This document shows positions 50,691 through 51,007 of a DNA stretch of 64,000 nucleotides, in pieces. The stretch is taken from NCBI RefSeq assembly GCF_947496995.1, contig NZ_CANMFD010000001.1, forward strand, positions 802,692-866,691. Direction: 5' to 3'. The notes beneath the pieces were generated by a model. That model had not been told where the DNA came from. It saw nothing but the letters and a program-made list of their open reading frames with translations, and ran no database searches. Source of the DNA: an uncultured Roseibium sp. Lineage in GTDB: Bacteria; Pseudomonadota; Alphaproteobacteria; Rhizobiales; Stappiaceae. The translations under genes were made by a program, and so were the position numbers. Positions within the stretch are counted from its first letter, which is position 1. Each line of letters opens with the position of its first letter.

Positions 50691-50705
50691 GATTCCTTCG
50701 TGTTA

Positions 50706-50969
50706 GGGTACGGACTCATAAAATTATGCTTTCAGGTCGTTCAGAAAACGATTGGTTCCAAGGCGCAAGATCGCAGGAAACCTTTCTGGTTTTCAAGATT
50801 TTGCAACGCCGGAGACAATCGCTTTCTGAACGATCCGAAGGACATCAATCCGGCTGCGAAGCGCCGCGTCAAAGCCTTTGCCCCATGCACCAGCATGGCT
50901 CTTCAGGCTTTTCCTAACTCTTCTTTGCCGGGTTGATGCCTGGAAGTACAATTTTATGAGTCCGTACCC
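50706..50969. mobile_element. MITE-like element with 20-bp inverted repeats and TA target duplication
   Basis: GGGTACGGACTCATAAAATT at 50706-50725 is matched exactly in reverse complement at 50950-50969. The 264-base element is bordered by TA at 50704-50705 and 50970-50971, the target duplication made by IS630/Tc1-type transposases. No complete transposase frame is inside, so it would move only with help from a related full element elsewhere. The inside has moderate GC and no assigned function. Confidence 0.75.
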
Positions 50970-51007
50970 TAGAGCATCGGGCGTTTCTTAAACGCCCGAT
51001 GCTCTAG
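50969..51007. repeat. Perfect 18-bp stem palindrome beside the MITE-like element
   Basis: CTAGAGCATCGGGCGTTT and its exact reverse complement flank a three-base loop. It directly follows the right end of the mobile element and lies nine bases past the stop of the gene at 51017 (minus strand), for which it may serve as transcript end. Similar CTAGAGCATCGGGC palindromes may recur in the genome. Confidence 0.65.

Follow-up and report, generated by a model that had tools for sequence, protein, structure and literature searches.

MITEs are commonly regarded as passive copies whose ends are their defining feature. A short, repeat-ended locus in the genome of an uncultured Roseibium sp. raises the question of what such an element is, what moves it, and whether its interior does anything. 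The stretch of DNA analyzed, hereafter the window, comprises 64,000 nucleotides (contig NZ_CANMFD010000001.1, positions 802,692 to 866,691, forward strand).

A TA-flanked element with exact inverted ends

The TA-flanked element spans 264 bp (50706–50969) and carries GGGTACGGACTCATAAAATT at one end and its exact reverse complement at the other. The TA of its target duplication is found at 50704–50705, where the target TTAG represents a YTAR site, and again at 50970–50971. Perfect 20-bp inverted repeats that are flanked by TA and lie 100–600 bp apart occur once in the window and in none of 100 dinucleotide shuffles. The length, ends, and flanks given in an initial annotation of this DNA are confirmed; a second perfect-repeat match at 14 bp is the same 264-bp element counted from its inner TA. 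The inverted repeat runs on to 33 nt per side (TA included) with 91% complementarity. The annotated lack of a transposase frame likewise holds, as the frames crossing the element have stops that differ between copies. A constant length divisible by three had hinted at a protein; however, a coding sequence was ruled out by these differing stops and by the lack of a three-base periodicity in column variability (10 representatives, p = 0.56).

Copies and empty sites

The genome that contains the window harbors 12 full-length copies of 92–100% identity, in addition to fragments and self-matches of the inverted ends. Each of the 12 full copies occupies a YTAR site and is flanked by TA on either side; by eye, no relatedness is apparent among their flanking sequences. 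Six predicted empty-site sequences were searched in six relatives and the matches were aligned, yielding four informative sites. Two of them, the L004 site in G011 and the L012 site in G020, are clean empty sites that contain one TA; the L006 site in G011 and the L008 site in G020 are likewise empty and contain one TA, but differ in other ways close by. In G020, the element occupies the L006 site. For the other two sites, the six relatives provided no match (L002) or a match in part (L011). For the relatives L177, L173, and L179, which gave no usable alignment, the spans of the match were taken. At the window site, for which an empty TA at 50704 had been proposed as a check, the element is indeed absent from G011, but ~100 bp of neighboring hairpin sequence are missing too, and the site is therefore not a clean empty one. 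The initial annotation had allowed for a chance or regulatory inverted repeat if no other copies and no empty-site strain turned up; instead, 12 copies and empty sites in sister species exist. The element is hence a mobile, non-autonomous transposable element, a MITE as annotated, with 12 full copies and with single-TA empty sites for four copies other than that of the window.

The L008 site is variable in a further respect, being occupied by the 264-bp form in the own genome and by a 158-bp version in G011. The latter is best fitted by one 106-nt deletion after position 31 that comprises exactly arm 1 and the junction hairpin of the fold described below, which suggests that the hairpin arm was lost in place. 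Versions of 158 bp were observed at L187 and L097 in G011 and at L013 in the own genome (C5:419239–419396).

A covariance model of the element (R1) has matches in 79 of 297 genomes and in 52 of 122 genera of the order Hyphomicrobiales, counts that are lower bounds owing to stricter filters and to the scoring of about six candidates per genome. TA is present on both sides of 51 of 80 related elements identified as covariance-model matches, 49 of these 51 being located at YTAR; TA is found on one side only in 25 of the 80 and on neither side in 4. Plasmid searches returned no match for the window element, for one relative, or for the 54-base arm tip, and one weak match for another relative (Phyllobacterium, 71%). 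The 54-base tip had no match in a phage search, and one viral contig contains the exact tip motif.

A Y-shaped fold conserved across genera

Folded alone, the window copy reaches −138 kcal/mol (z = −12.8 as RNA, −10.4 as DNA), and the whole 264 bp folds, beyond the inverted ends alone. The predicted fold is a Y, composed of an outer stem formed by the two ends and of two hairpin arms. On the plus strand, the left end (50706–50736) comprises the 20-bp exact terminal inverted repeat (50706–50725) and its extension, and provides one half of the outer stem; the other half is formed by the right end (50939–50969), where the extension precedes the 20-bp exact repeat at 50950–50969. Arm 1 is a hairpin with internal loops (50737–50833), at the tip of which (50773–50797) the motif GCAGGAAACC-loop-GGTTTTCAAG includes a conserved G-T (G-U) pair. 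A mini hairpin, CCGAAGG (50835–50841), marks the three-way junction and is followed by arm 2 (50843–50938), a more variable hairpin.

Subfamilies within the genus share an ungapped identity of 0.44–0.56 with each other, with length kept at 264 bp, and 75 of 80 model matches measure 261–265 bp. Motif starts are similarly constant among 35 elements: the tip motif begins at position 68 in 32 of them, a second motif at 130 in 27, and a third at 161 in 29. RNAalifold analysis of 25 aligned elements identified 89 pairs, 65 of which show changes on both sides. Paired cells amount to 92.9% compared with 73.6% upon shuffling, and the covariation score of 0.529 compares with 0.188 for shuffled alignments and at most 0.143 with partners slid. 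The Y fold was recovered de novo in 64 of 67 elements outside model building, these having been picked with the covariance model at E up to 1e-35, and in none of 1005 shuffles. Mean pairwise identity is highest in upper arm 1 (0.74), followed by the two ends (0.68 and 0.67) and the junction (0.63), and amounts to 0.47–0.51 elsewhere; in these alignments, it is the pairing rather than the sequence that is kept over most of the body. The converse picture, in which the ends vary and the body stays, was rejected on these same region identities.

As pairing and length are kept across many genera, the fold itself probably does something. We consider it very likely, judging from these models, that the body is under selection for its fold and has a corresponding, putative function. 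Because nearly every base is paired, insertions and deletions would disrupt the fold, and this would account for the constant length.

Strand asymmetry in arm 1

Covariation among active copies could reflect the needs of a DNA palindrome alone. G-T and A-C appositions were counted in an alignment fitted to the covariance model (A4), in which each place contributed a single row and poorly paired columns were left out; the count was made at three identity cuts. At the 90% cut, 15 pairs in middle and upper arm 1 contain more G-T than A-C and no pair shows the opposite, whereas the end stem comprises 12 G-T-rich and 9 A-C-rich pairs and the base of arm 1 displays no G-T excess (2 pairs versus 4). 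The bias in middle and upper arm 1 amounts to 11 versus 0 pairs at the 70% cut and to 9 versus 1 at 60%, alongside 8 versus 3 and 4 versus 0 in the stem; the contrast between arm 1 and stem thus fades as rows are thinned because the stem also leans to G-T, and upper arm 1 on its own drops to 3 versus 1 at the stricter identity cuts.

Arm 2 leans to A-C at the 90% cut, with 5 G-T-rich versus 12 A-C-rich pairs (15 versus 45 cells). Along 50843–50938 in A4, A-C hence exceeds G-T on the strand that reads arm 1 first, as if the opposite strand folded.

These counts bear on a reading of the body as a palindromic DNA scaffold only, in which the transposase or the replication machinery would need cruciform-prone DNA and no RNA or single-stranded DNA (ssDNA) motif would be recognized. 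Such a scaffold would be in line with the strong DNA fold, with the about balanced G-T and A-C of the end stem at the 90% cut, and with the G011 version of 158 bp at the L008 site, which is devoid of arm 1 and the junction hairpin, as from hairpin loss in replication. It would not account for the one-sided G-T excess in middle and upper arm 1, for the strongly conserved and asymmetric tip, whose G-T pair is present in 52 of 57 rows, or for the occurrence of this tip in other phyla with different ends, and we regard it as a rather doubtful explanation.

G-T wobbles suit a folded strand, and the excess in arm 1 therefore points to selection on one strand. On this sequence evidence we lean towards a single, folded strand as the form in which at least middle and upper arm 1 works; it would be RNA, or else ssDNA during replication or transposition. 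RNA is tentatively the form we would name, and ssDNA is a fainter possibility. A host or element factor would recognize the arm 1 tip, and this would serve the spread of the element itself, not the neighboring gene.

The tip motif outside the order

Among the matches listed, the exact tip motif is present in Roseibium, Stappia, Nitratireductor, Hongsoonwoonella, Tepidamorphus, Anderseniella, and others, and outside the order in Saprospiraceae and Ruminococcaceae. One Saprospiraceae genome harbors 54 exact tip motifs, and eight further genomes (outside the order or with no given taxon) harbor 1–6 each, compared with none in 11 of 11 genomes for the reversed tip pattern used as a control. The tip matches L240, L242, L253, L277, and L290 look like chance, with no matching hairpin by eye. 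In other phyla, the hairpins with the tip motif are multicopy and have ends that differ from one another.

Hairpins outside the order with different ends and the same tip comprise L227, L262, L287, L289, L255, L269, L267, L222, L223, and L226, and belong to Bacillota, Saprospiraceae, and one MAG. Some of them, e.g., L267, also have AAGGC and AACGC beside the tip.

A speculative extension of the preferred reading is that the arm 1 hairpin, characterized by asymmetric loops and a GCAGGAAACC/GGTTTTCAA tip, might be a recognized RNA or ssDNA device that spans phyla and aids the spread of various non-autonomous elements, whichever transposase moves them. Its carriers would, equally speculatively, be the 264-bp Y elements in Hyphomicrobiales and single hairpins of very roughly 110–180 bp in Saprospiraceae, Ruminococcaceae, and others.

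Insertion at stop codons

Element sides coincide with stop codons in 57 of 162 cases, compared with 354 of 2634 control YTAR sites; part of this enrichment is gene avoidance, because the control includes sites inside genes. As the element starts with G after TA, landing in a TAG or TAA stop codon would restore TAG, and stop-codon insertions would be cheap for this reason. No orientation bias was detected with respect to the gene that provides the stop codon, with 30 sense and 26 antisense insertions among 56 of the 57 stop-codon sides (the ambiguous L291 being left out), and a service to the neighboring gene is therefore unlikely. Inside the element, a promoter-like match at 50925–50952 agrees in 9 of 12 letters, with 0.4 such matches expected in the 801 bases scanned.

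This bears on the question of whether the element is a domesticated regulatory or 3′-end RNA element, the gene-end copies of which would be kept because their hairpins terminate or protect host transcripts. The enrichment at stop codons, the very stable RNA fold, and the position of the window copy between two converging reading frames (genes inferred from ORFs) would all be compatible with such a role. Against this, sense and antisense copies are about equally frequent, sites are polymorphic between species, and a consensus scan identified no terminator-like site inside the element, rendering domestication at gene ends improbable. A mobile element whose folded body would serve its own spread remains our preferred reading.

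Candidate transposases

Within the order, DUF4096-type insertion sequences (IS) are members of the IS5 family (NF033580; PF13340 and PF01609). IS711 likewise falls in this family, in its IS427 group. End pairs were readable in 17 of 48 DUF4096-type loci. In nine of these 17 readable elements at least one end fits GGN5GACYCAWW, with a register relative to TA that matches that of the 264-bp element, whereas eight differ. The nine fitting IS measure 833–840 bp, with two frames in L335 and L336, and their ends agree with element ends in 12–13 of 18 letters on average, compared with 6 of 18 for interior 18-mers. The best end match within one genome reaches 16 of 18 (G082), and the best between genomes 17 of 18, linking the IS of G124 with an element of its congener G216, although the local match between IS and element in G124 is 12 of 18. 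Overall, IS and element ends agree in 10.29 of 18 letters within the same genome (n = 17) and in 10.34 between different genomes (n = 289), and for the nine fitting IS alone in 13.0 versus 12.1 of 18. Ends do not track the local IS, because same-genome pairs agree no better than others.

No IS with exactly the element's ends was found, including in the own genome, where both the single DUF4096 IS and the four DDE_Tnp_1 genes have other ends; the proposed check for the same ends around a transposase gene thus found none among these. Among the matches listed, end pairs lie ~264 bp apart by eye and no IS-sized gap indicates an autonomous copy with the same ends. DUF4096 was not detected in 6 of 32 element-bearing genomes (G012, G068, G178, G147, G077, and G119). 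G012 and G068 contain at least 50 and at least 77 element ends, respectively, yet no match to a DUF4096 or DDE_3 transposase. The interiors of nine IS compared share at most one weak 22-bp stretch with element interiors, and the element therefore does not resemble an internal deletion of these IS. We propose as the likely helper an IS5-family transposase (IS427/IS711 type), which would bind the ends in trans and insert the element; our confidence in this candidate would be higher if the ends did not lack a match to local IS.

The IS630/Tc1 type assigned in the initial annotation, which would make the element an IS630/Tc1-mariner-derived MITE, is highly improbable: the TA duplication is in line with the label but cannot separate IS630 from IS5/IS427-type elements, and although IS630-type genes are present in the own genome (two places), G029, and G018, no DDE_3 match was found in four of seven genomes searched (G012, G068, G032, and G064), the 11 DDE_3 loci yielded three end pairs starting with TA followed by GAGC, two others at the floor of 13 of 18, and six without a readable pair, none of which resembles GGGTACGGAC, and both the YTAR sites and the GGN5GACYCAWW ends are in keeping with IS5-type elements from the same order.

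The 264-bp element had further been described as the only clear mobile trace in the window, which does not hold, as a 33-bp palindrome between two TAs (GAGCATCGGGCG...CGCCCGATGCTC) adjoins it at 50972–51004. In its first six letters, this palindrome is identical to the ends (TA followed by GAGCATTTCCC) of L366, the IS630-type element of the own genome, and the IS630 label may for this reason fit the palindrome better. Similar sequences are found elsewhere in the genome and genus. A preference for GAGC palindromes next to the element was not established from few cases (7 of 167 sides versus 28 of 2960 control sites).

Relation to known systems

Collectively, we favor a MITE superfamily of IS5 type with a selected, folded body of putative function as the probable nature of the element. 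Because interior pairing and length are kept while much of the sequence changes, the role of the interior of a non-autonomous element becomes open to direct testing. Binding of the tip by a factor, if it occurs, would uncover a stage in how bacterial palindromic repeats spread for which we came across no description. The covariance model furthermore lets a common repeat be annotated.

Rfam 15 yielded sub-threshold miRNA matches only for the window element, and two matches for 13 related loci, both away from the element or motif places. In the literature, searched mostly in open papers, we found neither the tip motif nor a Y-folding element of 264 bp described; novelty is thereby not proven.

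Ordinary MITEs derive from an IS by internal deletion or consist of a pair of IS ends, and to our knowledge they have no conserved body, unlike the element described here, the body of which is conserved in pairing and length across genera. We likewise know of no REP elements with terminal inverted repeats or a TA duplication. REP elements, 20–40 bp in length and associated with TnpA-REP (PMC8266576, PMC3733652), are similar in that, in the cited passages, they are palindromic repeats thought to be spread in trans. QMITE2 of Coxiella is similar in its terminal repeats and in the predicted stable fold of its transcript, but has direct repeats of 7–9 bp instead of TA, and the cited part of its description does not mention a fold conserved across genera (PMC10969869). 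The Bru-RS of Brucella, palindromic repeats of 103–118 bp (PMC2267715, PMC2266754), are, as described there in part, closer to the element, being intergenic, from the same order, and associated with a YTAR-targeting IS; compared by description only, they reach less than half its length. That IS, IS711/IS6501 of Brucella, is described in the passages cited as 842 bp long, with 20-bp imperfect repeats, two overlapping frames, and TA duplication at YTAR (PMC2266754), which resembles both the nine fitting IS of 833–840 bp, with their two frames in L335 and L336, and the location of the element at YTAR. Paracoccus IS5/IS427 elements, for which the cited excerpt reports mostly 2-bp duplications (PMC3281130), share with IS711 the build of the order's fitting IS. 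Our best reading is that the kind of element, a MITE, is known, and that what would be new is a MITE superfamily in which dozens of genera keep the pairing and length of a folded body.
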